A DNA stretch of 40,815 bases. It comes from a virus. Both the position numbers and the translations under genes were made by a program. Position 1 is the first letter of the stretch. Every line of letters starts with the position of its first letter. Under the pieces are notes generated by a model. That model was not told the DNA's origin. It saw only the letters and a program-made list of their open reading frames with translations, and ran no database searches. Positions 14,815-39,763 of this stretch are shown here, one piece after another. The DNA lies in IMG/VR virus record IMGVR_UViG_3300046804_003631, positions 1-40,815 of that record; one strand, given 5' to 3'.

Positions 14815-14815
14815 A

Positions 14816-21700: not shown

Positions 21701-23477
21701 TAGATCCTACGCGAGTTGGGAGGTCACCGTTGCCAAGATTTGTTAATGTATTAACGGTTAGAGTTGCACCACTAGCTGCAGTGATAGTTGGTGAGAATGT
21801 ATTTTCAAAATTCTTTGTTCTAATAATAGTATTTGTTGCTGCAGCAGCATTTGATAACACGTAGGTTGCAGAAACAGTTTGGTTGGTAAAAGCGGCACCA
21901 GTGCTGTTGGATGGACCTTCCATGATGAAGAAGCTATCAGTTTCTCTCCAGTTCTGACTCGTAAAACCAGGAGCAGTTGGAGTTGCTTTTACAACATAAA
22001 CACCATCAAGACCAGCAATACCAGTATCACTTAGAGTGATCTGACGCTCTGGATAAACACTCATTTGACGGTTTGTTCTGCCGCTAAATGTAACTTTAAC
22101 TTCGGATTGACCGTTTATAATTTGAATAGATGAAATATTTTGTTGAATTTCATAACCTCTTGTATTGAAAAGAGAGAAAGTCAAGTTACCGCTACCAGAA
22201 CTAGCAAAGTCAACGAGGACATCATTGTTATAAGCATTCTGTGGGTTGGTTGCTAATTTAATAGTATCAGAATCTACAACAACAGCATAGAAGAATGAAG
22301 AAGCCGCTACTCCAGTTCCGTTGTTGTATATTGGTAGTTGACCTGCGGAAACAGCAAAACGACCTGTTGAAACAGCGTTGATTGTTGGATGTGATCCAGT
22401 AGAACCTAGATATGTGATGGGGTCTCCAGTTACTAATCCATGATTTGTAATAGTGATGGTATCTGCGGAAACGTTAATACCAGTTGCAGCATCAACAACA
22501 CGAAGAGCAGTACCTGCGTGATAAGGTTCATATGTGTTGAAATCACCAGTATCTAGAGAATATGAAATTCTATCTTCGACGTTACCGCCAGATGTAATGG
22601 AAGAAGCAGCAAATGCAACTCTTTTATTAGAAAGAGTATTTGTTAAATAGAATGGAGAATTAACTTTGAATCCATGCTTATATGGAGTAGTTACTGTTAG
22701 AGTGCTTGTAGATGCGTTGTCAGTAACAACTGGTCCTTCATCAACATTAACACTATTATCAAAAGGAATTTGTGATTGGACATAGAAACGACCAGTCGTG
22801 ATAGTTACATAAGCAGTATTGATGCTTACTGGAACTGAAGGTGAACCAGGCTGTACAGTTCTTGTTTCGTATGTGAAGGTGTAATCTGTTGTTTTGCGAA
22901 CTAGGAATGTACCTTCTGCTGTTATACTGTCGAGACCGCGAACATCAATAGGGATACCAGTCGTTAGACCGTGAGGTGATGTTGTGGTTACAGTAACAAT
23001 TCTGCCACCATTTGTGCTTACATCAGAAACATTTGAGAGGGGGGTATCGCCACTGATTGAATAGTAACCAGGAACGTTATTAACTCTTTCTAGAGTTTCC
23101 CACTTGGTTGCTTGTAGACCATATTCGAAGTCGGTATCAATTAGAGTGTTTGGCTCTGATACGCGAAACTTAGATACTGGGTCTAAAAGGGTATCAACTG
23201 GTTTGATTTCAACACCATCTTGCTCTGTAAAAATTTGAAGAACATCACTGTTATTCTGTCCAGTGGTGTCGTAATTTAGAGTGATAGTGGTTAAATCTGT
23301 AGATGGATTATAATCTACAGCAGTTGCTTTTAGAGCAGGGTCGCCAACGTTGTAGATAACGGTGTTGGCGGTTGCGTTGTTGATTAAGAGTAATCTCTTG
23401 AAATTTATATTACCTTTGATTGTAATCTGACGAGCAGCTTTATTAAAGGTATAGTCAAATGCTAACTTTCTTGCCAT
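15708..23477 (-). CDS. giant modular tail fibre/adhesin protein (2589 aa)
   Basis: The largest gene here, last in a six-gene fibre operon. Residues 101-128 carry FRVSEPNTLIDTDFEYGLQ, a conserved virion-protein motif related to AFGRLRV in the 463-aa protein. From about 165 to 2030 the protein is built of diverged beta modules, many opening with 'HGL-x-TG' and ending 'YY.I..D.n.i.La'. I place them near residues 170, 270, 347, 700, 910, 1206, 1356, 1564, 1769, 1925 and 2127. A glycine-rich hinge lies near 800 and one CBM5/12-like unit near 1658. The last 500 residues align with the 463-aa protein. Several modules resemble the E1_FCCH fold often detected in phage fibres. No enzymatic motif is seen. 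The start has AAAGGAG eleven bases upstream. Likely surface exposed and host-interacting. Confidence 0.92.
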   Translation of the reverse strand: MARKLAFDYTFNKAARQITIKGNINFKRLLLINNATANTVIYNVGDPALKATAVDYNPSTDLTTITLNYDTTGQNNSDVLQIFTEQDGVEIKPVDTLLDPVSKFRVSEPNTLIDTDFEYGLQATKWETLERVNNVPGYYSISGDTPLSNVSDVSTNGGRIVTVTTTSPHGLTTGIPIDVRGLDSITAEGTFLVRKTTDYTFTYETRTVQPGSPSVPVSINTAYVTITTGRFYVQSQIPFDNSVNVDEGPVVTDNASTSTLTVTTPYKHGFKVNSPFYLTNTLSNKRVAFAASSITSGGNVEDRISYSLDTGDFNTYEPYHAGTALRVVDAATGINVSADTITITNHGLVTGDPITYLGSTGSHPTINAVSTGRFAVSAGQLPIYNNGTGVAASSFFYAVVVDSDTIKLATNPQNAYNNDVLVDFASSGSGNLTFSLFNTRGYEIQQNISSIQIINGQSEVKVTFSGRTNRQMSVYPERQITLSDTGIAGLDGVYVVKATPTAPGFTSQNWRETDSFFIMEGPSNSTGAAFTNQTVSATYVLSNAAAATNTIIRTKNFENTFSPTITAASGATLTVNTLTNLGNGDLPTRVGSIVRFTNVGSLTGVSLNTNYFVSTVTSTSITLSTTNPAVSVTPVSFGGTVGGATIKVFRSGARAQIHDGATSWLNHTRVSIHDWCSITGKMFTRECISSDRIFIKNHGLASGVPIIFIGGGNTWTGGVTAPVESASQSAIYYVEPINKDEIELRTTETVSGVGPYSGSTGATRVNFSTANTWAGGVYQIHPGFTVNIFSAAAGGGGGGRDRVLGAYANLPPYMTEKAEIILKNGTGSTLPGAVTETPNTYASFQKYFARTLINSGPVSGASEFSITLADSGSPINFTSNHTTGAGRFICCRIAENPYSNSFYLPNHGGVTGQRTAYSISGSFTGGTTDTQGVFPATAGFPGPLFDYVTDSTGVNWPRVSMTMTQATAPIQGLTSGNRYYMVPINDDIFKVQAYSASTLPTGQPTVQLTITGTASQATTSVSGPFGTTKVKFANSSVANPFGNRIFLPIEQQTLTEGDIVRYESTGASEVGSAYTGAPGLVNGSLFTVRNVSDFTPISTGLFTTIDHGADATVLTLNTSIGSGISVGNTLWTGVYLNEKMLVTAVSGNTVTVTRGYSGTTARAIPAEVSIYRVNGSFQLQVRDTATPRSFSVAFGSSNSTTDTWNLTGHGLRIGETVAISAYTTSGAITNTIINTSQSANAQLYYAIPVDANNFQLAHSRAAAFAGFPIDITNTGSAGNWSFVQYYDSVPLTSSASGTHNLVNVSSTGTIDGGYDAVAVSDYKVSFTPGNTISNRVITFDPAKNTDLRTGTFYYQDHGLTTGTRVVYSRNGNSFEIGRSTGNTNPRAGYNALYDLQITSITASSPSAGFVTYGFGTLPSSPFDIVPNQTITISGVTVGGSTANGYNGTFKVVSSTVSSVTVANSTTGGSPGGTGFISGTYYTIRRNLDMFQLAYTKQDALNGIAIQNFSTTGTVNAGHTITTLQVTGESLGNGLATIVARDIIVNGSSNAAVLAASDRIVFTGHGFNTGDRIIYQVWGNGRNINGLVTGRQYFINNTAGAQAKGGAAAGQAANQFSLHNTWVGAYTNTDLVDILGVGTSTLHQFKVTNPSLRGTTFKGDWNTSDTYTYGDVVIFRNSYYMSVTGATAPGQSTFVGNSGNQPVQDSDGRANLNWMLLPPLPSYSTKFLAQYRGGDSVKLSGRMPIKTLVFSGTGVANTSTGIFNINGHGLSTGDAVVYKLDAQGGWHQGTNGSWQEYTSQLPQQPYSGMTANTLYYINVIDANNFTIHSSPAGAFIGGSTGTGVDQIIPTANGSGSSHRFEKYEGFVFDMQVLAVNNDSDMIVTDPYPTRQINFNPQTIAVAVSGLATPVISTERDEIYIPNHGLNTGVKVYYSAGFGIGNVIGGLAEGSTYYIIKINDDVIRLASSLSNALTFQFIDITSTGQGFNHYLVAATYCSSSYIRYQSGGALASDSLTGTNSNYYLTQTGANIRDGVLQAIPFIYETQMFVRPDCLNLHRSFDGGVEISAARAPGVQITRQTRRYFRYQSGKGLQYSTGINFSPSIDVSSITHDGSSFATVISRKPHKLIAGNRIIVEDVTVTSGVNAPYVTPANGLYFTVNNVIDEFTFRYATNGVPSDLAPSGFASLFLYEWADARVRAGMFDDQNGMFFEYDGQNLSCVRRNATSQMAGTVACTFKGNIISGNGTRFTKQLSVNDRVVIRGMTYKITAVDSDTSASITPAYRGTSRSKIVVTKIIDLKVPQSQWNIDKCDGNGVTGFKLDIHRQQMAYMDYSWYGAGKVRFGFKDQKGIVTYVHEFIHNNKENEAYLRSGNLPARYEIENGDSPTYAPSLYHWGASVIMDGKFEDDKAYLFSVASGSAGSDTISIPQTLAGVAVPILSIRLAPSVDTSLVGPLGERDLVNRMILKMNSTGLVVGNTNNKPASVRLILNGNLSQSAYFTNYGSPSLCQIIKHTGQSADTISGGISIFEFRAAVNSPITQDLGTLVELGNSILGGDYVFPNGPDVLTLAVVPTDTAAATTVTARLTWTESQA

Positions 23478-23500
23478 TTTAGTTTATTCTCCTTTTGAAA

Positions 23501-24400
23501 TTAGAATCCGAATGTTAGTGAAAATGTTAAAGCTGCCGCCTTAACTGCAGCAATTTGTTGGGTTACGTTACTGGTGTTATCACCTTGAGCAAATAATTCC
23601 CAATAAGCAGGTGCTTGTTCTGGGTCTCTTGCGCCACCATCAGCAATGGTGTATTCTTGGATATTTATCCAAGCACTAGCACCTTTAAATACAATTTCTC
23701 CTAGTGTATAATCAGAAACTGCACTCCAAGATCCTCTCCACCTTAAACCAGTTTGGAGGAAAGTCCATTTTGTTATATCTGACGAAGGTTTTACGTTAGT
23801 ATTGGCAACAATCGCAACGTAAAGATTGCCACCATACTGAGCAACATCACCTGGCTTATATGTAGTTGCTCCACTCCATGCTCCCACTGGGGATAGTCCA
23901 GTGACTAGGAGACCCCAATCAGCAGAACTTGAAGAAGGAACTACGTTTGTATTGATTGTTTTAGCGGTATAAGTATATCCGCCATAAGCAACAATATCTC
24001 CTGGTTGATATTCGGTTGAATTACTCCAACTATTTTCAAACTTTAATCCGTTAAGATAAGTTGAAAATTTAGTAGGATCATATATGGTTGCTGAAATGTG
24101 TGGTGTTGTACAAACATAAATTGAGTTACCATAAGTAACAAGGTCATTTACTTTGTAAAAAACGTTTGCTGTCCACGTCCCTGTTACTTCGTAACCTGGA
24201 ACGTGAACATTCCATCTACTTGTAGGTGCGCCTAAATCAGTTACATAAAATGCCGCTTCATCAACGGCAGATGTGTGGTTGACAACACAAATATATGTGT
24301 TACCACCAAACTTCACGATATCATCAATTTCGTAGGCTGTATTAGCATTCCACGCGCCTCTCCAATTAAATTTTAATCTACCTAATCTGAAGTCTGCCAT
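23501..24400 (-). CDS. five-repeat CBM5/12-like carbohydrate-binding fibre protein
   Basis: The 299 residues are five tandem repeats of about 50 residues, beginning near 13, 72, 122, 172 and 221. Each reads roughly 'G.W...t.Y..gDiV.ygg..Yv', as in RGAWNANTAYEIDDIVKFGG and GAWSGATTYKPGDVAQYGG. This is the carbohydrate-binding module 5/12 (chitin-binding-like) pattern, with the conserved W, Y and aromatic positions kept. The protein likely binds cell-surface polysaccharide. It precedes the 2589-aa gene in the same operon, which holds a single stray repeat of the same type. An AGGA precedes the ATG. The N-terminal 'FRLGRLKFNWRGAW' looks like the anchor to the virion. Confidence 0.88.
   Translation of the reverse strand: MADFRLGRLKFNWRGAWNANTAYEIDDIVKFGGNTYICVVNHTSAVDEAAFYVTDLGAPTSRWNVHVPGYEVTGTWTANVFYKVNDLVTYGNSIYVCTTPHISATIYDPTKFSTYLNGLKFENSWSNSTEYQPGDIVAYGGYTYTAKTINTNVVPSSSSADWGLLVTGLSPVGAWSGATTYKPGDVAQYGGNLYVAIVANTNVKPSSDITKWTFLQTGLRWRGSWSAVSDYTLGEIVFKGASAWINIQEYTIADGGARDPEQAPAYWELFAQGDNTSNVTQQIAAVKAAALTFSLTFGF
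23656..23673. repeat. perfect 8-bp inverted repeat in the CBM-like gene
   Basis: CTTGGATA and TATCCAAG face each other with two bases between. It lies within the codons for WINIQ in the last CBM repeat and includes a GATAAATA on the minus strand. Probably coincidental, but a hairpin or internal promoter is possible. Confidence 0.4.
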
Positions 24401-24412
24401 TTTGTTTTCCTA

Positions 24413-24814
24413 TTATTTTGGACCTGTGTATGTGTAATTGTTGTTTAGTCTTGCGACTAGATAACCTTCATCATCAATAAAATAACGCACTTTTCTAGTT
24501 TCAAATCTATACTGTTGGTATTTATCATTGCTATCATTTAAATCTCCAACATTATCTACATTGTTTATTCCTCCTGAAGATGAAATATTATTTTTTGGTC
24601 TTCCAGGTGGAAGAGATTCAACATAATCGTCCAAACTATAAAAAGAATTTTTAATTGGACTATTAAAAACTTGAATGTTAGTATTAGAAGATGCATCTTC
24701 TAAAGTATAAACTAGCATTCCATCAGCTGTTTTTGAAAGTGCATGAAAATCAAATACTGATGAGGAAGATCCTCCCCCTCCAGTTCCTATTAAATTACTT
24801 AAATTAATTGCCAT
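24413..24814 (-). CDS. small protein of the fibre operon, glycine/serine hinge
   Basis: This 133-residue protein starts MAINLSNLIGTGGGGSSSS, so it has a flexible Gly/Ser hinge at 11-19. It continues with VFDFHALSKTADGMLVYTLE and ends YFIDDEGYLVARLNNNYTY. No family recognised. It lies one base after the 731-aa fibre gene stop and 12 bases before the CBM gene, so it belongs to the same operon. It may be a fibre connector, trimerising or assembly protein. That is inference from context. Confidence 0.75.
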   Translation of the reverse strand: MAINLSNLIGTGGGGSSSSVFDFHALSKTADGMLVYTLEDASSNTNIQVFNSPIKNSFYSLDDYVESLPPGRPKNNISSSGGINNVDNVGDLNDSNDKYQQYRFETRKVRYFIDDEGYLVARLNNNYTYTGPK

Positions 24815-24815
24815 T

Positions 24816-27011
24816 TTAGTAAAGCCTCCAATATGTTCCTGTCCATACTAAATCTATATTCACGCCAGAAAAATCTAAAATTAATGTGTTGTCAATCACT
24901 CCAGTACTAACCAAAAATGATTTATTGCCAGCATTAATATTTGCTGGAATACTAGACCAAGTATTTGCGCCATCCGCCAATCTTACAATGTCTCCTATTT
25001 TTGGATTGGTTGGTAAATCTAAAGTGATACTACCGTATGATGTATCAACAATATAATTTTTATTAGACTGTAAATTGGTATTTACGCTGACAAAAGTTGA
25101 TATTGCAAAATAGGGACTTAATGTAGCAGATATATTTTTTGTGCCAATTGTTATATAATAATCTATACCATTCATGTTCAAAAAATATAATTCAGTTGAT
25201 TCTAGAGAAGTTCCGACATCTAGAGATGGCACATAGAATAGAGACCAATTTTTTCCATCAACGGATCTGTACGAAATGCCATAATTATCAACTATTATAT
25301 AAGCTTGTGTTGCTGAAGAATATTCTAAAGAATTTATTGTAGTGATATTTGGCGGATTTACAATTAAATCTATCCATGTGTTACCATTTGTAGAAGTTTT
25401 GATTGTAACATTATTATTAGATAAATCATCGATTACAGCAATAAATCCTGAACCATATGGTTTCACAAAAACATTTTTTAATCCTCCAATATCCAATGTT
25501 TTCGTCCATGTGGTAGTGTCATTACTAATTGCTATATCACCACCAGAACCAGCAGCAACAAAAACTCCATTATTGTATGAAAATTGATTTATTCTTGACA
25601 CCAAATTACTGGACCTTAGTGTAAAGGTAGTTGAACCAGATGAAGATGCAATATTACCTAAAGAGCTTCCTATTAATTGCTTATTATTTGCATAATATGA
25701 TGCAGTAATATTAGATCCATTTGCAGAAAATGGTCCAGAAGATACTGTCCACGAAGAACCACTAGATGATGTTAATAAAGTATTTGAATCTGCTCCTGCA
25801 AAGAAAAATGTTCCTCCCCACGAAACCGTATTAATATTATTGCCAGTTCCAGAAGTAGCAGCATTCCAATTATTTAAATTGGATGAATATGAGATTTTAC
25901 CAGTGTTTGATACGATTACATGAATAGGTGCAATAAAATTTCCGTTGGAAGCAAAGGAATTTATTATTGTTTCTGGAGATATATTCGTATTTTTTTCTAC
26001 CAAACCATTAATACCAGATGGAAGTAATGAAACAAAAGACCACCCAACTAAACTACCACCAGTAGTTGTTGTTAGTAATTCGTCCCATCTACTATCAGAA
26101 ACATTATAAATTTTTGCTGTATTTGTAAATGTATTCCATATTAATTGACCATCTGTTGGAGATGCTGGATCATTCACTACAGTGATATTAATTTTATCCG
26201 AAGTTACAGCACCTGTAGATAATTCTGTTGTTCCTACTGCTCCGTTTGCTATTTGTGTAGAAGTTATAGCATCGTTGGCAATTTTATTTGTAGTTACTGA
26301 TAAATTTAATAATTCTGAAGTACCTACCGCTCCAGAGGCAATTTTATCTGCAGTTACTGAATCAGTTGCTAATTTTGAAGTTGTGATATTACTATCAGCA
26401 ATTTTTGCAGTTATTACTGCAGAATCTGCTATTTTTCCAGCGGTTACATTTAAGTCTGCAATTTTTGCTGTTGTTACTCCAAGGTCAGCTAACTTTGAAG
26501 TAGTGATATTTAAATCACGAATTTTGGCAGTTGAAACTGCTTCTGCTCCAGGTGTACCATCTAATTTAATAGTGGTGATTGCACCATCTGAAACATCAGA
26601 TGCAATAACCGTACCAGGAGCAATTTTATCACTAGTGATAGAATTGTCAGCAATTTTGATGGTAGTTACAGCGCCATCTTTGATAGTATCAGTTGTTACT
26701 GTATCTGTACCTGGCTTGTTTAAGGAAACTCTATCACCAAGAATGGCAAAGAAAATTGCGCCAGAAGAAGGAGCAATCGCAAAAGTAATTACATTACTTT
26801 GAATAGTAAAGTCAACTTTTGGATTTAATTGCCCACCATTGAGAACTGCTTGAAATAGCAACTCTGTATCTGGATAAACTGGTTCTCCTTCAATTGTTAA
26901 ATAAAACTGTGTTGCTGAACCATTAAATCCTACACCACCACCAACTCTTTGGAGGGGAGTATCAATTTTTCTATTATCTGTCCTTGTAGGACTTATACCT
27001 AAGTATGGCAT
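24816..27011 (-). CDS. tail fibre with decapeptide-repeat stalk and putative six-bladed propeller
   Basis: 731 residues in four parts. Residues 1-100 are an attachment-type N-domain (MPYLGISPTRTDNRKIDTPL). Residues 105-274 are about seventeen ten-residue repeats of the type 'IADxxITTxK', forming a stalk. Residues 320-600 hold six Asp-box-like motifs (S-x-(D/N)-x-x-x-W) near 374, 413, 455, 494, 538 and 581, spaced about 40 residues apart, as expected of a beta-propeller. Residues 645-731 are a C-terminal beta domain (NKNYIVDTSYGSITLDLPTN and WTGTYWRLY) that, as I recall, also ends many marine phage fibre proteins. It probably binds a host surface ligand. GGAG lies five bases before the ATG. 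No sialidase catalytic residues can be assigned. Confidence 0.9.
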   Translation of the reverse strand: MPYLGISPTRTDNRKIDTPLQRVGGGVGFNGSATQFYLTIEGEPVYPDTELLFQAVLNGGQLNPKVDFTIQSNVITFAIAPSSGAIFFAILGDRVSLNKPGTDTVTTDTIKDGAVTTIKIADNSITSDKIAPGTVIASDVSDGAITTIKLDGTPGAEAVSTAKIRDLNITTSKLADLGVTTAKIADLNVTAGKIADSAVITAKIADSNITTSKLATDSVTADKIASGAVGTSELLNLSVTTNKIANDAITSTQIANGAVGTTELSTGAVTSDKINITVVNDPASPTDGQLIWNTFTNTAKIYNVSDSRWDELLTTTTGGSLVGWSFVSLLPSGINGLVEKNTNISPETIINSFASNGNFIAPIHVIVSNTGKISYSSNLNNWNAATSGTGNNINTVSWGGTFFFAGADSNTLLTSSSGSSWTVSSGPFSANGSNITASYYANNKQLIGSSLGNIASSSGSTTFTLRSSNLVSRINQFSYNNGVFVAAGSGGDIAISNDTTTWTKTLDIGGLKNVFVKPYGSGFIAVIDDLSNNNVTIKTSTNGNTWIDLIVNPPNITTINSLEYSSATQAYIIVDNYGISYRSVDGKNWSLFYVPSLDVGTSLESTELYFLNMNGIDYYITIGTKNISATLSPYFAISTFVSVNTNLQSNKNYIVDTSYGSITLDLPTNPKIGDIVRLADGANTWSSIPANINAGNKSFLVSTGVIDNTLILDFSGVNIDLVWTGTYWRLY
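26188..26698 (-). repeat. 30-bp-period coding repeats of the fibre stalk
   Basis: The decapeptide array at residues 105-274 of the 731-aa fibre has an almost unbroken ten-codon period, with one irregular unit near residues 151-160. Units are diverged in sequence but keep the I/V-TT-x-K-I/L-A pattern. Confidence 0.8.
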
Positions 27012-27022
27012 GTTACTCCGTA

Positions 27023-27355
27023 TTAATTACTAATTTCTAAAAAGCTTAATAATACATCCATGCCACCAGCAGTATCACATCTCACTTTAACTTGGTCTCC
27101 CACTTCTAATACGATCTTTTGACCAGATAAAACTTCAAAAGAAGATCCTGTTGGAATGGGGATATTTTTTATTAAGTTTGCATCAGCACCTACTGCTTTA
27201 TCAATAATAACATCAGCAACAACTGAAGAAGTTGCTACACAAGCAAGGTTCATTCCAATAATAATAGAAGAAGTATTAGATGGCACAGTATACACTGTAG
27301 TTAAACCACTTCCTACTGCTGCACTTACTTTTGATTTGAAGGTATTTGTTGCCAT
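27023..27355 (-). CDS. small virion structural protein, beta-sandwich-like
   Basis: This 110-residue protein has TVYTVPSNTSSIIIGMNLAC, then ADVIIDKAV and the end QKIVLEVGDQVKVRCDTAGG with MDVLLSFLEI. I recall this as a recurring small structural protein of marine T4-like phages, often next to fibre genes. The shape suggests a single jelly-roll-like domain. AGGA precedes the ATG by eight bases. It has only short gaps to the 89-aa and 731-aa genes and is likely incorporated with the fibre. Specific role unknown. Confidence 0.85.
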   Translation of the reverse strand: MATNTFKSKVSAAVGSGLTTVYTVPSNTSSIIIGMNLACVATSSVVADVIIDKAVGADANLIKNIPIPTGSSFEVLSGQKIVLEVGDQVKVRCDTAGGMDVLLSFLEISN

Positions 27356-27359
27356 GTTA

Positions 27360-27629
27360 TTATCCTAATGCAATTGATAATGCCAATACATCTTCAACAA
27401 AAACAGGTGTTACCCACGATAGATCACCAGATCCATTCGTCTGCAACACCTGCCTATTCACCCCAGCGTCGGTGGGGAGAGTCAATGTATAATTAGCGGA
27501 AAGAGATACTGGCGCTCTGAGTGCTACTGAATTATCACCATTGGATGATAATTCTTGTAATTCAAGTTTATTTTGGTTTTGTACGACGACGCCGTTTTTA
27601 ACGACGAACGCCTTAGCATTCGTTGCCAT
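27360..27629 (-). CDS. short fibre-type protein, first gene of the leftward fibre operon
   Basis: The 89 residues start MATNAKAFVVKNGVVVQNQN and contain NYTLTLPTDAGVNRQVLQT then NGSGDLSWV. Both blocks are normally part of much longer phage fibres, so this looks like an isolated N-terminal fibre domain or a truncated fibre. A GGGGAG Shine-Dalgarno sequence and a perfect TATAAATA late promoter 39 bases upstream argue that it is expressed as is. It may act as an adaptor for the fibres encoded after it. That is inference. Confidence 0.82.
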   Translation of the reverse strand: MATNAKAFVVKNGVVVQNQNKLELQELSSNGDNSVALRAPVSLSANYTLTLPTDAGVNRQVLQTNGSGDLSWVTPVFVEDVLALSIALG

Positions 27630-27667
27630 GAAGGTTCACTCTCCCCTTCCACTAAATTTTCTAAGTA

Positions 27668-27675
27668 TATTTATA
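27668..27675 (-). promoter_or_regulatory. perfect late promoter TATAAATA driving the leftward fibre operon
   Basis: This is an exact T4 late promoter box on the minus strand, 39 bases upstream of the 89-aa gene. It is back to back with another exact box on the plus strand 17 bases away. Confidence 0.8.
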
Positions 27676-27692
27676 CAACCAAAATACTGAAT

Positions 27693-27700
27693 TATAAATA
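27693..27700 (+). promoter_or_regulatory. perfect late promoter TATAAATA driving the rightward fibre cassette
   Basis: This is an exact T4 late promoter box on the plus strand, 28 bases upstream of the ATG at 27729. Together with the box at 27668 it forms a divergent promoter pair in a 99-base intergenic region. Confidence 0.8.
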
Positions 27701-27728
27701 CTAGTACGGAAAAATATGGGAAATCATA

Positions 27729-30413
27729 ATGCCATTACAAAACCAATTTCCTTGGTCAACCGTTGAGAAAATTGCTGCAAATCTATTAACCAATGGTTAT
27801 CATAGTGGTATTAGTTTTGCATATGATTCATTAAATGGAAGAATTAATGCAACTGCCACTGGTGGAGGTGGTGGGAGTTCAACGCCACCAAGTTTAAGTA
27901 TAACAACTCAGGGAGCATCTGGGTCTGGAGCATTGCAATACAATAGCACTTCTGGTGTTTTAACTTTTACTCCACCTCTACTAACAGGATACGCACAAAA
28001 GAATGCTGCTGAAACATTTTCGTCATTGGTAGTTGGAACAAGCACAACATCCCCAACTGTTTTAGCAAATACTATTACAAATACATCTGGGGGTCCAGTA
28101 TCGTTTTCTTCGGGATTAGATATTACTTCTTTGAGAGTTAATGGGTCATTAGGAGCATCTGGTCAATATTTAACGAGTACTGGCACTGGTGTTTCGTGGA
28201 CAACTTTGAATGTTGTTTCTCAAAATAGTTCTCCTACTTTAAATAATGTTACTGTAACAGGTAATTTGAATGTAAACGGACCTTTAACGACACAAAATTT
28301 AACGACTTTAAATGTTTCAAATAGTCAAATTATTTTAAATGATAATATAACTGGTAATCCAACAACAAATGCAAGTTTAGTAATTAATAGAGGAAATACT
28401 ACTGACGTAGAAATAAGATGGAATGAGCTTACTGACAGATGGGAATTTACAAATGATGGTGTCACGTATGTAAATTTACCATTATCAACAGAATATAATA
28501 ACTACAATAATTTAATTAATAGACCTTCAATTCCATCCGCTCAAGTTAATTCTGATTGGAATGCTGTGAGTGGAATAAGTGCTATTTTAAATAAACCCAC
28601 ATTATTCAGTGGAGCATATGCTGACTTAACTGGAAAACCAACAATTCCATCATTACTTCAAAATCTTTCCAATGTTTCATCTGCCACACCAGTAACAGGA
28701 AACATTTTACGTTGGGATGGCACTCAATGGTCACCAGCATCTGCTGGTGGTTCGGGAAGTGGTGGTGGGACGATGATTGGTCCTGTTACATCTATTGATA
28801 AATCAATTGCTAGATGGAATGGCACTACAGGTAACGAAGTTCAAAATTCATTAGTAATTATTGCTGACGACGGTGCTATCACTGCACCAAAAGTAAAAAA
28901 TCTAATTCCATTTTATTATTCAAGTATTTCTGAATTTCCTTCTGCTTCTGGTAATGAAGGTGGTGTAGTATATTCGGAATCTGGTGGGGCTTTATATTAT
29001 TCTCATGCGGGAAGTTGGACAAATCAAAGAGTGGTAACTACAACAAGTTCAACTTCTTCTGATTTACAAACTTTACTTGGAAACTTCCAGCAAACATATT
29101 CTACTTCTACCTTAGATTATACTGCTGGCACCACTCAGCAAAATATAGAAAGAAAAATTTTAAGATTATCTGCTTCTGGTGGAGCAACAAGTGATATTAT
29201 TATCAGAGCAACAAGTGGAATTAATATTAACAGAAGTAATAATGAATTAACTTTACAGGGAAGACTTTATAATATTAGCACTGAGCAATCTCTTGGCAAT
29301 ACTGTAAAATTAAGATTGCAAGAAGTTGGTATTGCCACTACAAATACTGATATTACTTTTGCTGGAGCGGATGGATTATTGGTTGAAAGAACAAATGCAA
29401 CCACTATTACTTTCAGAGCACCAGCAACCACAGTAACACAATACACCGATGCTTTGGCGAAAGATGCTGCAGCATTAATGTTAATTAATGGTAGTAAAGT
29501 TGGTGTTACTTATACTTATGATAGTGTCAATAAAGTAATAAACACTATTGTATCAGGCGGTGGCGGCGGTGGAGGCACAGTAATCACTTATGATTTATCT
29601 GGAAGAAATACCACAAGCAATAATGCTTTTATTGACCTGATACCAAGTAGTGGATTAACTGATAGCGTTGAAATTGCTGGTAGTGCAGGAACAACAGTAA
29701 ATTGGGATTCTGGCAATAAGAGAATTACTATTGGTAGCGTTGCTCCAGTTCAAGCAGACTGGACTCAGACAAATACTTCTTCACTTGATTACATTAAAAA
29801 TAAACCAACTATTCCATCTGCTTATACACTTCCAACTGCTTCTGGTTCTGTCCTTGGTGGAATTAAAGTTGGTGCTAATTTAAGCATTGATGTCAATGGT
29901 GTTCTTAGCGCAAATACAGGTAGTTACAGCTTGCCAACAGCATCACCAACTACTCTTGGTGGTATCAAGATTGGTTCTGGTTTAACCGTTGATGGAAATG
30001 GAGTTGTCAGTGCTTCTGTGGCATCAAGCGTTCCAACCATCCAAGAGTTGAGTGGATCCACTGCGTCATTAGCTCCTAACACAACTGCGGAACTAAATAT
30101 TACTGGATACAAAGCATATTCATTATTTAAAATTACAACCACCGCCGAAGCATGGGTTCGTGTATATACAGATGATGCATCAAGAGATGCTGATTCATCA
30201 AGAAGTGAAGGTCAAGACCCAGCAGCTGGCACAGGTGTAATCAGTGAAATTAGAACTGACGGCATCACAAATACAGTATTAATTAGCCCAGGTATTTTAG
30301 GATTTAACAATGACAATCCAATAACAACCACAATTTATCTTTCTGTTACAAACAGAAGCACATCATCTACCCCAATTACAGTAACTCTAACAGCATTAAA
30401 GATCGGAGAATAA
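27729..30413 (+). CDS. tail fibre protein with polyglycine hinges (894 aa)
   Basis: First gene of the inverted cassette. Three glycine-rich hinges (near 45, 337 and 610) separate segments. The N-terminal 'LLTNGYHSGISFAYDSLNGR' and the internal 'LMLINGSKVGVTYTYDSVNK' before the third hinge are copies of one module. RWDGTQWSP and ARWNGTTGNEVQNS are common fibre elements. A doubled 'GGIK(V/I)G....D.NGV(L/V)S' unit lies near 707 and 743. The last 125 residues (from about 768, including EAWVRVYTDDASRDADSSRS) look like a C-terminal beta domain I have seen in marine phage fibres. Likely a host-recognition fibre. Shine-Dalgarno weak (GGGAAA). Confidence 0.9.
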   Translation: MPLQNQFPWSTVEKIAANLLTNGYHSGISFAYDSLNGRINATATGGGGGSSTPPSLSITTQGASGSGALQYNSTSGVLTFTPPLLTGYAQKNAAETFSSLVVGTSTTSPTVLANTITNTSGGPVSFSSGLDITSLRVNGSLGASGQYLTSTGTGVSWTTLNVVSQNSSPTLNNVTVTGNLNVNGPLTTQNLTTLNVSNSQIILNDNITGNPTTNASLVINRGNTTDVEIRWNELTDRWEFTNDGVTYVNLPLSTEYNNYNNLINRPSIPSAQVNSDWNAVSGISAILNKPTLFSGAYADLTGKPTIPSLLQNLSNVSSATPVTGNILRWDGTQWSPASAGGSGSGGGTMIGPVTSIDKSIARWNGTTGNEVQNSLVIIADDGAITAPKVKNLIPFYYSSISEFPSASGNEGGVVYSESGGALYYSHAGSWTNQRVVTTTSSTSSDLQTLLGNFQQTYSTSTLDYTAGTTQQNIERKILRLSASGGATSDIIIRATSGININRSNNELTLQGRLYNISTEQSLGNTVKLRLQEVGIATTNTDITFAGADGLLVERTNATTITFRAPATTVTQYTDALAKDAAALMLINGSKVGVTYTYDSVNKVINTIVSGGGGGGGTVITYDLSGRNTTSNNAFIDLIPSSGLTDSVEIAGSAGTTVNWDSGNKRITIGSVAPVQADWTQTNTSSLDYIKNKPTIPSAYTLPTASGSVLGGIKVGANLSIDVNGVLSANTGSYSLPTASPTTLGGIKIGSGLTVDGNGVVSASVASSVPTIQELSGSTASLAPNTTAELNITGYKAYSLFKITTTAEAWVRVYTDDASRDADSSRSEGQDPAAGTGVISEIRTDGITNTVLISPGILGFNNDNPITTTIYLSVTNRSTSSTPITVTLTALKIGE

Positions 30414-30416
30414 AAA

Positions 30417-32729
30417 ATGGCAATTTTTAAATCAGTTATTAATGTTAATAACGGAAATGCTGGATGGACACGCCAGCATGTTTTAGATGCGTTAGAAACT
30501 GCTTTTAGTCAGTTGGGGTTTAATGGTGGTAGTGCTGTTGCTGGATCTCCTGTGGCATTTGAAGCTCCAGGAAATAATTCAACTAATGTTGGTGATTACA
30601 ACTGGAGATTTTGTGGTGGCCCAGCAGTATCTCCTAATAGTTCTATTAATAGATATTTTTATGTCACTAACAATGGAACGTCATCATATAATTTATTAGA
30701 ACAATGGTATGTAAGTAATTACAATTTAAGTTCAGATACTTTGACATTAACACAGCACATTCTACAAACTGGAAATCCAGTTGTTTGGAATCCAGATAGT
30801 TTATCGGGTAGTATAAGTCCTTTAGTAAACAATACAACATATTATGTTATTAAAGTTGATAGTAATACAATTAAATTAGCAGCAACACTTGATGATGCCA
30901 CAAATGGAATTTCAATAAATCTAACCGCAGTTTCTGGTTCATGGAACACAATTCCACTGAGAAGAGCATTTAATGTTTTATATAACAACTATCAAATTGA
31001 TGTTGAGATGGGAGATACTCTTAATTTTATAGTAAATGATACAACAAGTGGCGGACAATTTTATATTATTGACAGTCCATCCACAGGATATGCTGCAAAT
31101 AGAGTATTGAATACAAATAATTATTATGCAGAAAGTTATAAAGTTTTTCCAACTGGACAAGGAACATCAAGTGTAGTTTGGACTGTTAGGGGATGGCCTC
31201 AAACAGAAGACGAAAATCAAAATCCTGATGATATAGCAGGAACGGGTTTAACAGGAATTTATTCATATGGATATGGTAATTCTGCAAACTCATCTATGAG
31301 AGGAGTAATCAGAATATTACCTGCCGTTAAAAATGGTAATAGTACTTCATACTATCCATATTGGAAGTATACAATTCCAGCATCTGGAAGTAGATCTTCA
31401 TTGAAAGTCAAAGTCTATCGTGCTCCTTCTAATATAGCGTATACTCACCAAGTAGCTGGTATCCAAATTTACAGCAAAGGATCTGGTTGGGGCACAAATG
31501 AAATTCTTACTATTCCTGGATCTGCAATCGGTGGAGTTGATGTAACCAATGACATTTTAGTGGGTGTCAATAGCGCAACCACAGCACAACAAACAGCATT
31601 TAATGGAGTTTGTGATGTTATCACTACAAATTATGGTGCTGGAAGTACAATGTATCAAAAGAGTTCTTATGGACAGTTTGCGGTATTAAAAAATGTAAAT
31701 GATAATACTAAAACTTTTGGAACTACATTTTATGGATTTGGATTGGATACTAACAACTATAGAATGTATATTAGTTCTGGTGCAATGTGGATTTCATTAA
31801 ACAGAAAAGGCACGAATGCTAATTATAGCAACGGACAATATGATTATGGTTTTTATGGTGGCGATAGAGGATTAGATTATCAAGAATCTTATAATTATAT
31901 AAACAATTATCCTGAAAGTAATTTTACGTATGTTGATTATGCTACATCTTCTACGCCAACAGCTTATCCTCTTTCTATAAGATTATATAAAGCACAATCT
32001 CCGCAAGATACAAATTTTGCAGTAATACAATTTACTCAAACAATTAATAATGCTATTGTTCCTTTTGCTACATTTTCTATACATAAAGGCAGTAATTTCG
32101 GTAGTAATGTTTGGGATTTAAATCATGTATGGAATGGCGGAATTACAACCTATACAACTAGCACAAGAAATGTCGGTATGCGTTATTTCTGTCCAGGATA
32201 TACTTACTATTATTATAGTAGTAACGGACAACAAAATGAAGCTGTAGATAGTCGTTCGTTATCCAGAGAAGCAAATTATGGATATCTTCGCAACAATAGT
32301 TATTCGTCAATTCCAATAACTACATATGAATGTAATATAGATACTGCGAATGATCTTAATTATTCAAGAGCAATTACTTACTACAGAAATTCTAATTATG
32401 ACGGAATGCAAAGTGCTCAAACATCATTAAACTACGCAGACAGAAATAAAACGGTTTCTCCATCTGCAAACTATTATAAACCAATTAAAGGTATTCCTAT
32501 ATCTAATTGTTTAATGCCGTGTCCATATTATCTACCTGATGATTACATCATGCTTCAAGTTTCTACTTCTCCTGGATTAACGCAATTCAGACCAGGAGAC
32601 ACAATAACAGTAAGTCCTTCTGAAGTTTATGAAATTATTGTTGCTGGTTATGAAACTTCTCAGAATGGACTTGATAATATCAATGGAAATAATTCAATCG
32701 GTATGATTTTCGCAGCGAGGACAACCTAA
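30417..32729 (+). CDS. tail fibre/adhesin protein (770 aa)
   Basis: This starts three bases after the 894-aa gene with GGAG eight bases upstream of the ATG. The N-terminus (MAIFKSVINVNNGNAGWTRQ and VLDALETAFSQLGFNGG) looks like a shared attachment domain. Near residues 105-180 it carries one 'TGNPVVW...TTYYVIKVDSNTIKLA' module of the type repeated in the 2589-aa protein. The rest is rich in Tyr, Asn and Ser, with many Y-Y and N-Y pairs, typical of receptor-binding surfaces; no enzyme motif is seen. Its stop overlaps the 91-aa gene start (TAATG). Function inferred: distal fibre or adhesin. Confidence 0.87.
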   Translation: MAIFKSVINVNNGNAGWTRQHVLDALETAFSQLGFNGGSAVAGSPVAFEAPGNNSTNVGDYNWRFCGGPAVSPNSSINRYFYVTNNGTSSYNLLEQWYVSNYNLSSDTLTLTQHILQTGNPVVWNPDSLSGSISPLVNNTTYYVIKVDSNTIKLAATLDDATNGISINLTAVSGSWNTIPLRRAFNVLYNNYQIDVEMGDTLNFIVNDTTSGGQFYIIDSPSTGYAANRVLNTNNYYAESYKVFPTGQGTSSVVWTVRGWPQTEDENQNPDDIAGTGLTGIYSYGYGNSANSSMRGVIRILPAVKNGNSTSYYPYWKYTIPASGSRSSLKVKVYRAPSNIAYTHQVAGIQIYSKGSGWGTNEILTIPGSAIGGVDVTNDILVGVNSATTAQQTAFNGVCDVITTNYGAGSTMYQKSSYGQFAVLKNVNDNTKTFGTTFYGFGLDTNNYRMYISSGAMWISLNRKGTNANYSNGQYDYGFYGGDRGLDYQESYNYINNYPESNFTYVDYATSSTPTAYPLSIRLYKAQSPQDTNFAVIQFTQTINNAIVPFATFSIHKGSNFGSNVWDLNHVWNGGITTYTTSTRNVGMRYFCPGYTYYYYSSNGQQNEAVDSRSLSREANYGYLRNNSYSSIPITTYECNIDTANDLNYSRAITYYRNSNYDGMQSAQTSLNYADRNKTVSPSANYYKPIKGIPISNCLMPCPYYLPDDYIMLQVSTSPGLTQFRPGDTITVSPSEVYEIIVAGYETSQNGLDNINGNNSIGMIFAARTT

Positions 32730-33004
32730 TGGCAGATATTCCTTTAAATGATTTACAACCATCAACAGCAGAAATTGCTTATGATAATACAAAACTTTTT
32801 ATACAAACAACTGCAACTGGATTTATTGGTCCGACGTTTTCTTCTGTAACTAGAACAACAAATAATATTGCAACTTCATATAACTACAATATTTCAAATT
32901 TAGATTCGCCATCATCAGGAAATCGTTCTTCTACTCCTGGTATTCTTACTGGGCGCAGACCAATATATGGTCAATTATTTCCGAGGGGATATTTCAACCG
33001 ATAA
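32729..33004 (+). CDS. small protein ending the rightward fibre cassette
   Basis: The 91 residues begin MADIPLNDLQPSTAEIAYDN and end GRRPIYGQLFPRGYFNR. The ending 'GRRP..GQ.(Y/F)PRG.(Y/F)N' recurs, as I recall, in small proteins encoded next to marine phage fibre genes. Translation is coupled to the 770-aa gene through TAATG. It could be an assembly chaperone or a fibre tip subunit. No known domain seen. Confidence 0.8.
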   Translation: MADIPLNDLQPSTAEIAYDNTKLFIQTTATGFIGPTFSSVTRTTNNIATSYNYNISNLDSPSSGNRSSTPGILTGRRPIYGQLFPRGYFNR

Positions 33005-33033
33005 AAAAAGACCCCTTTCGGGGTCTATTTTTT
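33003..33033. terminator. bidirectional Rho-independent terminator between convergent genes
   Basis: GACCCC and GGGGTC form a six-base stem around a TTTC loop, with an A run before and a T run after. It can therefore stop transcription from both directions. It separates the rightward fibre cassette from the leftward 61-aa gene. Confidence 0.92.
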
Positions 33034-33218
33034 TATTCTGCTGCTGTTGCTTCTTCTTCGCCTTCTTGTGAAGATAGCAACTCTAGAGTTTCTAAACCAC
33101 CTTGTAGTTTGAGTTTATATTCTTCTAACTTTTCCAATTCACCTTTTAGTTTAGCAATTTGTCCTTCAGTTTCTTTCAACTGATTATTGAAATTAGTTCT
33201 CAGGGTATCAGCATTCAT
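33033..33218 (-). CDS. small coiled-coil protein
   Basis: The 61 residues are almost entirely a coiled coil (LRTNFNNQLKETEGQIAKLK, GELEKLEEYKLKLQGGLETL) with an acidic tail rich in E. It follows the 2108-aa gene and has its own candidate late promoter, CATAAATA at 33246-33253. Small coiled-coil proteins next to fibres often serve as trimerisation or assembly helpers. This role is inferred only. Confidence 0.8.
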   Translation of the reverse strand: MNADTLRTNFNNQLKETEGQIAKLKGELEKLEEYKLKLQGGLETLELLSSQEGEEEATAAE

Positions 33219-33245
33219 GTTTATACAAAATTAACAACGCTATTT

Positions 33246-33253
33246 TATTTATG
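33246..33253 (-). promoter_or_regulatory. late promoter CATAAATA overlapping the stop of the 2108-aa gene
   Basis: On the minus strand the TAA stop of the 2108-aa gene is inside CATAAATA. The ATG of the 61-aa gene is 28 bases downstream. Confidence 0.45.
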
Positions 33254-36200
33254 TTAGGAAATCTCTGCTAAGTCTGACAGTATTTGAGATAACGTTTTCT
33301 ACGCCACTCCAGAATCCGCCTGGATTTCCTGCTGGCACACCATTTATTGCTGATGGAGTGTATATAACAGAGACAATATCATTATTGAGAGTAGCGGTGA
33401 ATTCTCCAAGATATTTTGTGGCTAGAGTGCCATACTCACTAATCATTACATCTACTCCATCATGGACTATCATTATTTCTGTTGAATGTAAATATTTTGT
33501 TTCTTGATTTTGTACGTTTGTTGGACCCACTGGTTTATTGTAAACTTGAATTAAATACTTGCCAGTGTAAATATCTCTTGCCGAGAAAGTATCTATTACA
33601 ACAGGAGTAATTGTGGAGAATGTCTGAGATACATTAACCGTGCTACCTCTAAAGTTTGTGATATTAATGACTCCATAATTAGAGGCATCAGAACCATCTT
33701 GATAATATAAAACTGTTGGAGTATCTTGAGTTACTGTTACGATAATTTCTCCAACTTCTACACCAGAACCATTGCTCTGGAGACTGTTTACAAATTTAGT
33801 AATTCCAGTATCGTAAACTGATGGTGGTGGACTTGCTAATGTTCCTGTTTGACCAGGAACAGTAGTAATAAACATTGGATGACCAGCATTAGTTGCCTTT
33901 AAAATAAATTTAATTGATTGACCTACTACCATTTGAAGTTGTGGTCTTTCTCCAATACTTCTATTTGTAACTAATTCATTAATTTCCCATTTACCACTTA
34001 CGTTTGGAATTGTTTCGTATTCAAAAATTTCGGCAGCAAATCCTCTTAGTGGTACTTCTGCTACGTTTTGCTCGCTGTAGAATGTATTACCAAGTAGAGA
34101 GCGAGGACCAATATTTTCAATTTTTGATAGAGAAACACCTTTATCTCTAAGTGTTACTGAATATCCTGTAGAAGATAGCATCTCAAAGGTGCTATAATCA
34201 AAACTAGCAACACCGTATTCACTACTTCCAGTTGATTGTCCCTGTGCAAATTTAGCAATGTTTACGTCGAGGTCTAAAAATCCAGTTTTGTATGGATCGC
34301 CTTTAGTTACAGTTCCTCCATTTACATATACTCCTGGATTGACTGCTGCTGCGACAGTGAAAGTATCTCCATCAACAACTGTTACTTGATAATAACCATT
34401 ATAAGATCCTGGTGAAATACCATCAATCTCCACATAATCTCCATTTACTAAACCATGATTAGTAGATGTATTAAATGTAAATTGGGGCGATCCACCACCA
34501 GTATAGAAAGCAGATGAAACGCTAATAGATGATCCAGTTCTTTTTACTGAAAGAGGTCCATCACTTCCCAAACTGATGATTGTTGTTCCTGAAATCGAGT
34601 TAGGAACTGCTCTGATTCCTTTTGGAAGAGGCACATATTTGCTGAGACCAGAAAGGAATGTGTTTTCGTTAGAAATTCTGGTGCCTAATCTAGCAGGTGA
34701 AACAATACCAGAAACAATCTGACTAGCATCAACTTGCTCAGAAGAAATAACTTGCCAGTGATTGTTTACTGTCGCTGGCAATGATGCTAAAATATAAGAT
34801 CTTGAAGGTGGACTTGATGTATTTGTTTGAACAACAAAGTCTCCTACTTTTAGAGGAATACTATTCTTAATAACAATATTGCCTGTAATTTGTGAAGTGA
34901 AATTAGCAGCTGGCACATCAAGAGTAATAGTGTTATTTTGAGTATCAAATGAAACTATTTTTGCATCTACTAAACCATTTTGGGGGACATTTGTTCCCGT
35001 TACAGAATATCCGATAGCAACACTGACTAAATCATTGATAGTAATTACATTACTGCCAATGGTATGTGATACAACAGTTTTTGTTAATGTTGGAATTGCA
35101 TCTACTAAACGCTCAGAATCTGTATCTACGACATAAACATTAAATGGTTCTTGTGGAGGAATCTGGTCTCTATTAATTTTTCCAGTTCCATCTAGCTGGA
35201 CTACAACACCTGGCTGTGATGATGTGCCAACTTCTAAATCAAAGAAGTTGCCAACTTTGTCAACGATAAAGTCACGAACTGCTTTTTGTGTCGGCACAAC
35301 TTGGTCCGATCTTCCAGAAGCACCTCCCAAATCAGTATTTGTTGAAAATGCAAAAATAGGGGTGCCAGGCGATCCTTTTAATTGGAGAGAATCTAGGATA
35401 CCAATAGCAACAGCACCAGTAAATGTAGCTTTACCTGTTCTCAAATCAACGTTGAAGTTTGGACCAACAGTAAAGTTACCATCTTGGTCAGTAGCAGACA
35501 CATAGCATTTGCCAGAATTAATCTCCACACTTTGTTTAGATGTTATTGCTCTACCTCCATTAGTAGGAAGAGCCATGTAATTTGTTCCAGACCCAACATA
35601 TTCAAATGTATGCCCAGAACTATTAACACTTGAAGGAGATCTTAATTCACAAGCAGCATTATTTGGCACTAAAGGAATATCAGCATTTGGAACTTTTTGC
35701 ACCAAACTGAATTCACAAGTATTTAATAGATCTGGTGGTGAAAATGTGAATACTTCATCAACAATATATTCGCCATCTGGCAGCGTTGGCAATTGATCGA
35801 TTTTAACTATTTGGTTTGCCAAAGGAGCTTTTTGGAAATTAATAGCGGTAACCTTAGTGTAAGTTGAACCACTGGTAATTACCACACTTCCAGTAGAACC
35901 ACCTGCATATGGAGGAGCGTAGGAATTTTGATATGGAGTGTTTAAAATAAAGGTGAAGTAATTATCACTAAATTTGACAGTTTCGATTTCTATGTTAGTT
36001 CCATTAATGTTTGGCGTAGATGTGTGACCAGTAATTGTGATAATCTGTCCTCTCTCAAATTTACTGATATCATTAGCAGATACTTTAACAGTTACTCTTG
36101 TTTTTGCTCCACTTAATACAGAACTAAATGTTGTTCCAATGATTCCAGATGCTGTTGTGGCAAATGATGTCTTTGTGATGTTGGTAATGCCAGCAACTCT

Positions 36201-39200
36201 TCCGTTAGAATAGAATGGAAGCGCCACAGGACTGTATCCAATCGCTTTAAGACCTTCGTTACCAAAGTTAGTCGCAGAGTTCGTTACGGAGGCATATCCA
36301 CCAGTCTCACAAAGCACGCCAACATCTTCGAAGATTTCGAAAACAGATACTAACTGAGCATATGAGTCATTCTTTAGGTGGAAACCAACTGAGTTGAATA
36401 CAACCTGAGTAAACGCATCAGCAACCATTGACTTCAATGGTGTGTCTGTGAGTAGGTTTGCGCCATCAATTAACAATCCACCTGCTCTTGTCTTGGTAGC
36501 ATCATATGCCTTTGTTGTGGAATTATATGAAGTCTGACCAAGAACTGAAATTACTGAACAGTTCTGTATATATGGAGATAAGAAAATTCTTTCTTTTGGA
36601 GGAATAAATCTGTAAATAGTAGCGGAAACAGATGAGCTTGGTACAGTTGCTAATGTTAATTGCGTATTTGATTGTACAGATAGAATAGTGTAGGAACTAT
36701 TTCCTATTTTTATCGAACCACCCGCAAAAGTTTGGGAAATAAATTTAGTATTTGTTCCCGTGACGATTGAAGTTGAAGAACTTACATTGATTCTACCAGC
36801 ACCCTTGATGCCAGTCTGATCTGGATATGAGACCGCGTATCTGAAAACTCTACCGCCTTGAGTCACTACAGCACCATTTGGATGTTCTGCTGCTACTGTT
36901 GCTGTTCCAGTGATTGGATTAGGAACTCCTCTACCGTTCGTAGATATTGTTACTGTGTTGCCAGTAATATCATCTACTCTAATCCACTCCTGATCAATAA
37001 CTACATATCCAGGACCAGGGTTGTATACTGGACTATCGGCGCCATCTAAAATTGAGACTACGATTCCAAATAAAGTATCAATGTTTGTTTGAACATTAGT
37101 GCAGTCTCCTATAGTAACGGCAGGAAACTGTGAGAGGAATCCAGATTCTGTGATAATTCCAGTGTCAGTAACAACTTGTCTTGCTCTTAGACGTAATTGT
37201 TCAATTGCATACTTTGTTTCTATAAATTCTGTCGTAATATACTGCAAATTACCATTTGCATCTCTGTAGGACTCGCCAGCTAGAATAGATTTTACATTTC
37301 CACCAACTTTTAAATCATGAATAATTGCATCTAAAATCAATCCAAGATCTCTCTTGCACTTGCCATCTCCAGGAACACTTAACGATGCCCCATTTTCATT
37401 TGCTAATGCTGGAGCAGATAATGTTATTTGAGTAGCACTATCAATACTTAAAATTGTTGTTCCTAGTGTAATATTAGTTCCAGTTACTACATCGCCTACC
37501 TCTAGTCCCTGTATGCTGCTTACGCCAGTTACGATAGGATTATTGTTTGTAAGATTTCCTGTGAAATTTGTTGGGGGAATAACCAGTGAAGGATAACCAC
37601 CAACCAATTGAGCATAAGCATAACTAATAGTATCATCTCTCTTATATTGGAGCATATTAGCCCCATCTTTATAAATTCCTGAAATATCTTTTAAATTGTG
37701 TCCAGGGAATAAATTAAATGTTGTTGCGGTTTTGCTAATATATGGATTAATGCCAGCATTTAATTGTCCAATACCACGAAGAGAATCTGCTGGGTTATTT
37801 GGGTCTCCATAGTTATCTCTTAAAACAAATTGAGCGATATAGCAACCACTAGTGACCCAAAACATATCATCACCATCATTTAATGGTTTGATAATTGTTT
37901 CACGAAGGTTGTCACCTAATAAAGTTGTTCCTTTTGGTAGATAAATTGGATTGTCTTCATAATATTCGCCAGAAGCAACTTTAATAGTTGTATTTCCAGT
38001 AGTTGCTCTAGCTGCTTCTGATGCCTTTTTGATAGTCTTAAATGCTTTTGCTGGTGTGGATCCATCATACAAATTATCACTTCCATTTTTAGAAACAAAA
38101 ATAACATTTTCTATCTTGTCTTCTTTAATACAAATTGGAGAAGGCCAACTACCACCTTCTTTTGGACCATAAAATTCTTGTTTTACTTTATCAAAATAAA
38201 AGTCTCCATTATTGCCCAAACTATTTGATGGAGCAGTGATACCATATCTAAATTGATCGGTTAATGAAACATATTCGTTATCAATAAATGATTCCAATTC
38301 GTTAGTAGTGGTATTAAATCTCACCAAACCATTTGTTGCGATTGGTGTGGTAGGTCTCTGTGCTGAGGTTCCCTTCGGCACTACAAAACCAGCACGAGTA
38401 TCTAAAATAACTACTCTATCCGTGCCAGGAGTTATTGTAATATCGGAAGCAGTTGTATTATCATTTACAATTGCATTCTGAGAAATTTTTAAACCATCTT
38501 GAATCTTTACTGGAGTATTGAATTCCCATGCCCCAGATGATTGTAACCACTTGATAGTCTTATCTACCGAAGCTTTTAATGTGATACCACCACCGTCAGC
38601 TGTAGCGTCTGATGGCGTGGATACAGAGCCAATCTCTATATTTTTATCATCTACCGTTAGGGTAGTTGAATTAATCGTTGTAGTCGTCCCCGCGACATAC
38701 AAATCTCCCAAAACATCTACATTCTTGTGGAGAGTTACCTTTTCAGCACCATTAGTGGTATCAATAGATACATAAGAATTTGTAGATTCTCTTATAGAGA
38801 AAGCATTTTGAATATTATCTTGTAGAGCAATACCAGATGGAATGCTTAATCCACCAGTAACAAATAAATCACCAGTGAAACTATCTACGCGAAACTTTTC
38901 TGAAACTCCATCTGTGATTACAAAATTTTGATTATTTCCTCCTTTGAAGATTAAATCGCCAGTGCCATTAGGATCTATTGTGATATCACCATTAGTTTCT
39001 GTAGATGAAATGGTGTTAGTGTAAGAAGAAGAAACATAAATATTTCTCCACTTTTGATTGGACGAACCTAAATCATATGCATTATTCGTATTAGGAATGA
39101 AACTGGAATTAATATCAGCATTGAATACAATATTATCAGTATTGAAATCACCAAGAGTAATAGATCCATTAGACCCACTACCAGCTTTAAATGTTATGTC

Positions 39201-39575: not shown

Positions 39576-39763
39576 TATTTCCCAGCTATTTCTCTTAAAA
39601 GGGTTTTTATTTCTGATAATTCACATTTCAAATCATTCACATCATTTTGTAATTGTTTAATAGTTACAGAAGGAGATAATCTTTTATCTGTATTTATGAT
39701 GGCACCAGTAGTGTTATCACGGTATAATTCATCGTGCCCGTATACTTTACTATAATCTTTCAT
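39575..39763 (-). CDS. small coiled-coil protein linked to the 2108-aa gene
   Basis: This 62-residue protein begins MKDYSKVYGHDELYRDNTTG and has a coiled-coil second half (IKQLQNDVNDLKCELSEIKT, LLREIAGK). It is joined by TAATG at both ends, to the partial structural gene upstream and the 2108-aa gene downstream, so all three are made together. I recall similar mini-proteins beside cyanophage baseplate genes. It may trimerise or connect fibre and baseplate. That is inference. Confidence 0.85.
   Translation of the reverse strand: MKDYSKVYGHDELYRDNTTGAIINTDKRLSPSVTIKQLQNDVNDLKCELSEIKTLLREIAGK

Follow-up and report, generated by a model that had tools for sequence, protein, structure and literature searches.

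Phages Mu and P1 carry invertible tail-fibre segments. In T4-like marine phages the host recognition cluster (HRC) sits between VrlC and gp14, and in two similar pelagimyophages the HRC was found to diverge gradually rather than by replacement (PMC7029224). Metaviromic islands obtained by read recruitment lie at host-recognition genes (PMC3909814), and the consensus of the cyanophage late promoter is NATAAATA (PMC2984593). The Synechococcus phages ACG-2014i, S-H9-1, Sf-CH1b and S-BM3 carry homologues of the genes A and B described below in the same order (B 29–40% identical); gene C has a clear homologue in ACG-2014i, weak ones in S-H9-1 and Sf-CH1b, and none detected in S-BM3. These genes are annotated as tail fiber-like or hypothetical and, unlike those in the DNA analysed here, are co-oriented with their neighbours.

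The stretch of DNA that was analysed (the window), a 40.8-kb genome fragment, comes from an uncultured T4-like cyanobacterial virus of the ocean (cyanophage) whose capsid protein is at most 72% identical to those of Synechococcus phages in the phage collection. Its leftward genes are ordered from gp23 to gp13, followed by large structural and fibre genes, and the right edge is taken up by a VrlC-like protein (X350; 41% identical, across 71 aa, to the 'virulence associated protein' of S-BM3). The block between the VrlC-like gene and gp13/gp14 includes genes for tail fibres and lacks synteny among relatives of similar core, indicating that it belongs to the HRC. It occupies the same place as the HRC of pelagimyophages and is likewise large, fibre-rich and variable between relatives, but in the window a block of about 24 kb has been exchanged, and this block includes a strand-flipped, insulated unit (compare PMC7029224). 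As in the metaviromic islands, fibre and receptor-binding genes are the variable spots, although the units in the window are defined by recombination breakpoints between contigs instead of by read recruitment (PMC3909814).

The features of the locus are listed in the table. The sequence-only reading had described a rightward block of three genes in otherwise leftward surroundings, and this was borne out: ORFs A, B and C all lie on the plus strand, and every assignable gene elsewhere in the window runs leftward. We favour, with a probability of roughly 0.7, the interpretation that the cassette is a self-contained late unit which encodes a host-contact fibre and lies, in a fixed reversed orientation, within the HRC of a T4-like cyanophage. 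Mosaicism of the host-recognition region is known in kind; new are the fixed strand-flipped insulated unit, its psbA-side counterpart in a sister lineage and the replacement of B as a single gene. Within the part of the literature covered by the search, no previous account of such a strand-flipped fibre unit was found.

Table. Features of the window (positions are those of the window)
Feature	Position	Strand	Remarks
gp13/gp14	13909-15622		
Exchanged host-recognition block	15708..39575	.	S2589 to S2108, cassette inside
F299	23501..24400	-	Fibre protein, four CBM_5_12 carbohydrate-binding modules
F731	24816..27011	-	Fibre protein
T110	27023..27355	-	Structural-type protein
T89	27360..27629	-	First gene left of cassette
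Late promoter box TATAAATA	27668..27675	-	Of the leftward T89-T110-F731-F133-F299 genes
Inserted transcription unit	27676..33032	+	Rightward late box, A, B, C and bidirectional terminator; missing at the same L090 site, from which the ends were set (approximate to a few bases)
Cassette late promoter box TATAAATA	27693..27700	+	36 bp before A start codon
Gene A, 894 aa	27729..30413	+	Tail-fibre-like; PHROG 9729 tail fiber, 9627, 15343
Gene B, 770 aa	30417..32729	+	Candidate receptor-binding protein; exchanged singly
Gene C, 91 aa	32729..33004	+	Start overlaps B stop
Bidirectional intrinsic terminator	33009..33026	.	AGACCCC-TTTC-GGGGTCT, with A-run and T-run
61-aa gene	33033..33218	-	Convergent with cassette; marks insertion site
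Late box CATAAATA of the 61-aa gene	33246..33253	-	
S2108, 2108 aa	33249..39575	-	Large fibre-like structural protein; PHROG 5342
VrlC-like large structural protein (X350), C-terminal part	39763..40815	-	Right boundary of block

All three cassette genes had been called fibre genes. The result showed that this holds for A, which matches tail-fibre families, but not for B and C, neither of which gave a Pfam or PHROG match. The last ~165 residues of A are conserved across nearly all A-B-C loci in the alignment; a resemblance of the C-terminal domain of A to a viral turret protein, based on a single marginal PDB match (7e-4), was set aside as evidence. The AlphaFold (AF2) model of B, a confident one (pLDDT 86), consists mostly of strands and loops and had no PDB match at E<=0.001, alignments with a TM score of ~0.1 being disregarded. 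At the sequence level B matches cyanophage virion proteins, the best viral match being a virion protein of S-SCSM1 (1e-23). Given its variability, its position beside a fibre gene and its exchange as a single gene, B is probably the receptor-contacting part; as it has no recognised domain, this role rests on variability and position. Homologues of C, including the window at 32951-33001, share a conserved end of the type RRPxxGQLFPRGYFNR or RRPSGGQLYPRGNQ. Of the fibres profiled against the window, F731 is the most divergent, and its residues ~180-660 diverge more than any other stretch in the block genes so compared. The S-BM3 homologue of T110 lies directly upstream of the S-BM3 gene A. The CBM_5_12 family, represented in F299, is known from chitin- and cellulose-binding enzymes.

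Comparison with relatives showed that the window is a mosaic. Its core is closest to that of G005 (gp23 97%, gp17 97%, gp13 88%, VrlC-like protein 68%), and both flanks of the block match G005, whereas the S2589-S2108 block itself matches G009, G002 and G010. Identities to G009 and G002 are 94% for T89, 85% for A and 86-87% for S2108, compared with 56% for gp13 and 47% for the VrlC-like protein. In the trees the window was placed with G004 and G005 by gp13 (support 100/99) and with G005, G006 and G013 by the VrlC-like gene (100/100); in the F299 tree it falls with the cassette-bearing group. On a separate contig, G004 likewise combines a G005-type core (gp23 94%, gp13 85%) with the window's block and both late boxes. 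To judge from these breakpoints and trees, the 24-kb block, cassette included, was shown to move between core genomes; a core with a gp23 97% identical to that of the window bears a different block.

A smaller exchange was seen between the close relatives G002 (L194-L196) and G009 (L205-L207). Identity between the two is 95-99% for gp14-gp16 and the VrlC-like gene, 98% for A, 92% for C and 96% for S2108, against 72% for B. At the DNA level, identity is 92-99% throughout A, declines where B begins, stays at 60-86% over the length of B, and rises again from C onwards, with 85-99% beyond B. The A tree joined G002 and G009 (99/100) and rejected a grouping of the window with G009 (AU p 6e-5), whereas the B tree joined the window and G009, at only 93/95, and rejected G002 with G009 (AU p 0.008). 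The G002 allele of B is present at 100% identity in G003, a separate contig. Other genes also vary between G002 and G009 (S2589 80%, F133 79%, F731 84%), so that B is the strongest variable gene of this pair, not the sole one. The identity profile and the conflicting trees show that, as far as alignments can tell, B was replaced alone between close relatives.

An empty site was found in one 30-kb contig, L090. Here the T89 promoter joins directly to the stop codon of the 61-aa gene; A, B and C are absent, the leftward TATAAATA is retained, and no match to B was found within the contig. T89 is 74% identical to that of the window in L090 and 90-94% in cassette-bearing relatives. In G005 and G006 different genes adjoin the 61-aa gene. 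With L090, G005 and G006 as outgroups, gain of the cassette in the cassette-bearing lineage appears to require fewer events than repeated loss. The arrangement box-A-B-C was found in at least four genomic settings; A-B, usually with a small C after it, occurs within the recognition cluster, close to nrd/talC/psbA, beside gp17 and elsewhere. In L069 and L071 the triad stands directly before gp17 in the packaging region, co-oriented with its neighbours. A tRNA-Gly lies no more than ~50 bp upstream of A in L036, L040, L044 and L068, and just ahead of the fibre genes in S-H9-1 and Sf-CH1b. As an insertion anchor, however, tRNA-Gly was rejected, being near A in 8 of 53 loci (4 within 50 bp) and lacking in the window.

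The B tree recovers the inverted group as monophyletic (support 100), with L014, from another neighbourhood, as its sister (100). At L014:5404-16345 a rightward unit of the triad and two further genes is flanked by psbA and by a gene that matches PHROG 844 and was read as hli-like, both of them leftward. This unit opens with late boxes that point in both directions, roughly 45 bp apart, and closes with a GGGGGTC/GACCCCC hairpin. Its downstream same-strand neighbour is another fibre gene of the same island, and the island as a whole is flipped at least relative to psbA and the hli-like gene. Since the same anatomy recurs at another locus in the sister, the unit probably moved, in one direction or the other, already insulated. 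A history of local rearrangement is a less likely account of the locus, suggested by the S-BM3 lineage, which has a co-oriented A-B pair in the same cluster.

That the cassette is swappable was thus upheld for gain or loss as a unit, from the empty site and the several box-A-B-C loci; a swap of the three-gene cassette as such was not seen within the clade, where the visible swaps are those of the 24-kb block and of B alone. Could the locus nevertheless be an ordinary fibre operon, inherited vertically without swapping and with an incidental orientation? The cassette and its orientation are common to all eight relatives, and the identities of A, T89 and S2108 co-vary (Spearman 0.85-0.88), as such an operon would predict. 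However, core and block trees conflict, B conflicts with A in the AU tests, and an empty site exists, making this explanation unlikely. The sequence-only reading had held that one orientation together with a vertical phylogeny in all relatives would speak against a swappable module; the orientation is indeed uniform, but the phylogeny is not vertical, with gp13 and the VrlC-like gene putting the window with G005 and the block genes putting it with G009 and G002.

Exact TATAAATA was found only at the two window sites reported earlier, which face outwards 17 bp apart. The weight placed on their being perfect was not justified, since two exact copies compare with a mean of 3.7 in shuffled sequences and are thus not above chance. 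The consensus NATAAATA occurs 13 times in the window, seven of these 28-48 bp ahead of gene starts; motif and distance to start codons match the described cyanophage late promoter (PMC2984593), and a box shortly upstream of the gene marks a late unit, whereas two such motifs back to back with a conserved spacing of 17-19 bp distinguish the window. The leftward TATAAATA and the rightward ATAAATA are invariant in eight aligned sequences while the intervening bases vary, the two boxes stand 17-19 bp apart in 11 sequences, the more distant G004 among them, and the rightward NATAAATA is conserved in the window's clade and in G004. What goes beyond chance is therefore the conserved position and spacing of the boxes, not their exactness. 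Outside the clade a late box precedes A in 31 of 46 loci, B in 1 of 69 and other plus-strand ORFs in 83 of 572, these loci being partly non-independent.

The constant spacing, kept despite divergence of the spacer sequence, could also mean that the boxes were selected for regulation, the 17-19 bp precluding joint occupancy and so coupling transcription of the fibre and its neighbour. The facing boxes of L014 are roughly 45 bp apart, however, and the divergent partner is missing at most A-B-C loci, and we regard such coupling as improbable.

At the other end of the cassette, the two-way hairpin was confirmed: a terminator was predicted on both strands (folding energies of -16.9 and -17.2 kcal/mol, with z scores of -5.1 and -4.2). 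The stem is retained in relatives and the loop varies, with the exception of L008, in which the central part of the stem is lost at ~12636-12650 and AGACGTCT remains. The 61-aa gene, located between the terminator and the 2108-aa gene, is 75-98% identical in relatives and is also present at the L090 empty site. Because this leftward gene, next to the terminator, has its own late box, the terminator separates two convergent units. At G005:28970-29040 and at the matching G006 site, a late box after the 61-aa homologue lies inside a CCCTTC...GAAGGG hairpin, so that terminator and promoter appear to overlap. The conserved boxes and terminator support the earlier description of the unit as transcriptionally self-contained, at least as predicted from its signals.

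As the window is a metagenome-derived virus contig, its mosaic structure could be an artefact of chimeric assembly, but the same combination of core and block in the separate contig G004 makes this very improbable. The earlier term 'inverted' was found to apply as a fixed state and not as an invertible one. IMG/VR was scanned with B alone, which yielded six close relatives, and with the B alignment, which yielded 77 loci; the cassette is opposite to its neighbours in 8 of 8 clade loci and, by neighbour count, in no other locus. Flipped relatives, a comparison that had been suggested, were absent from scans with B, the B alignment, F299, the 61-aa gene and T89. No invertase gene linked to the cassette was found among the genes searched, the contig being a fragment and small ORFs covered in part. 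Fibre genes in reversed orientation are common to the Mu and P1 segments and the cassette, which opposes its surroundings and is bounded by symmetrical elements, but a host-range switch that inverts as in Mu or P1 is hardly credible here, given that no recombination sites and no second orientation were seen, all eight relatives agree in orientation, and the cassette ends share no inverted repeat of >=8 bp (longest inverted match 7 bp).

In the favoured interpretation, a fixed self-contained late unit, the sequence shows the cassette's own late box heading A-B-C, the conserved back-to-back box heading the leftward neighbours, and the hairpin parting the convergent ends, so that gain or loss of the cassette need disrupt neither of the adjacent units; the empty site shows that such an event took place once. 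A gp55-type factor of phage late transcription would be expected to read both boxes, as suggested by their motif. A may attach the fibre to the virion, its conserved C-terminus holding B, and B would make the receptor contact. The conserved A and C sequences may serve as homology arms through which B alleles recombine during co-infection. Tentatively, and with clearly less assurance, B might represent a new, structurally uncharacterised family of receptor-binding proteins in marine T4-like phages, its gene being exchanged singly between conserved arms in A and C, and the insulated late unit around it might have passed in flipped orientation between the surroundings of psbA and the HRC.

Taken in this way, the variable host-recognition region of ocean cyanophages is resolved into nested exchange units, namely a 24-kb block, an insulated fibre unit and a single gene. 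Gene B is an unannotated, testable candidate determinant of host specificity, present also in cultured Synechococcus phages.
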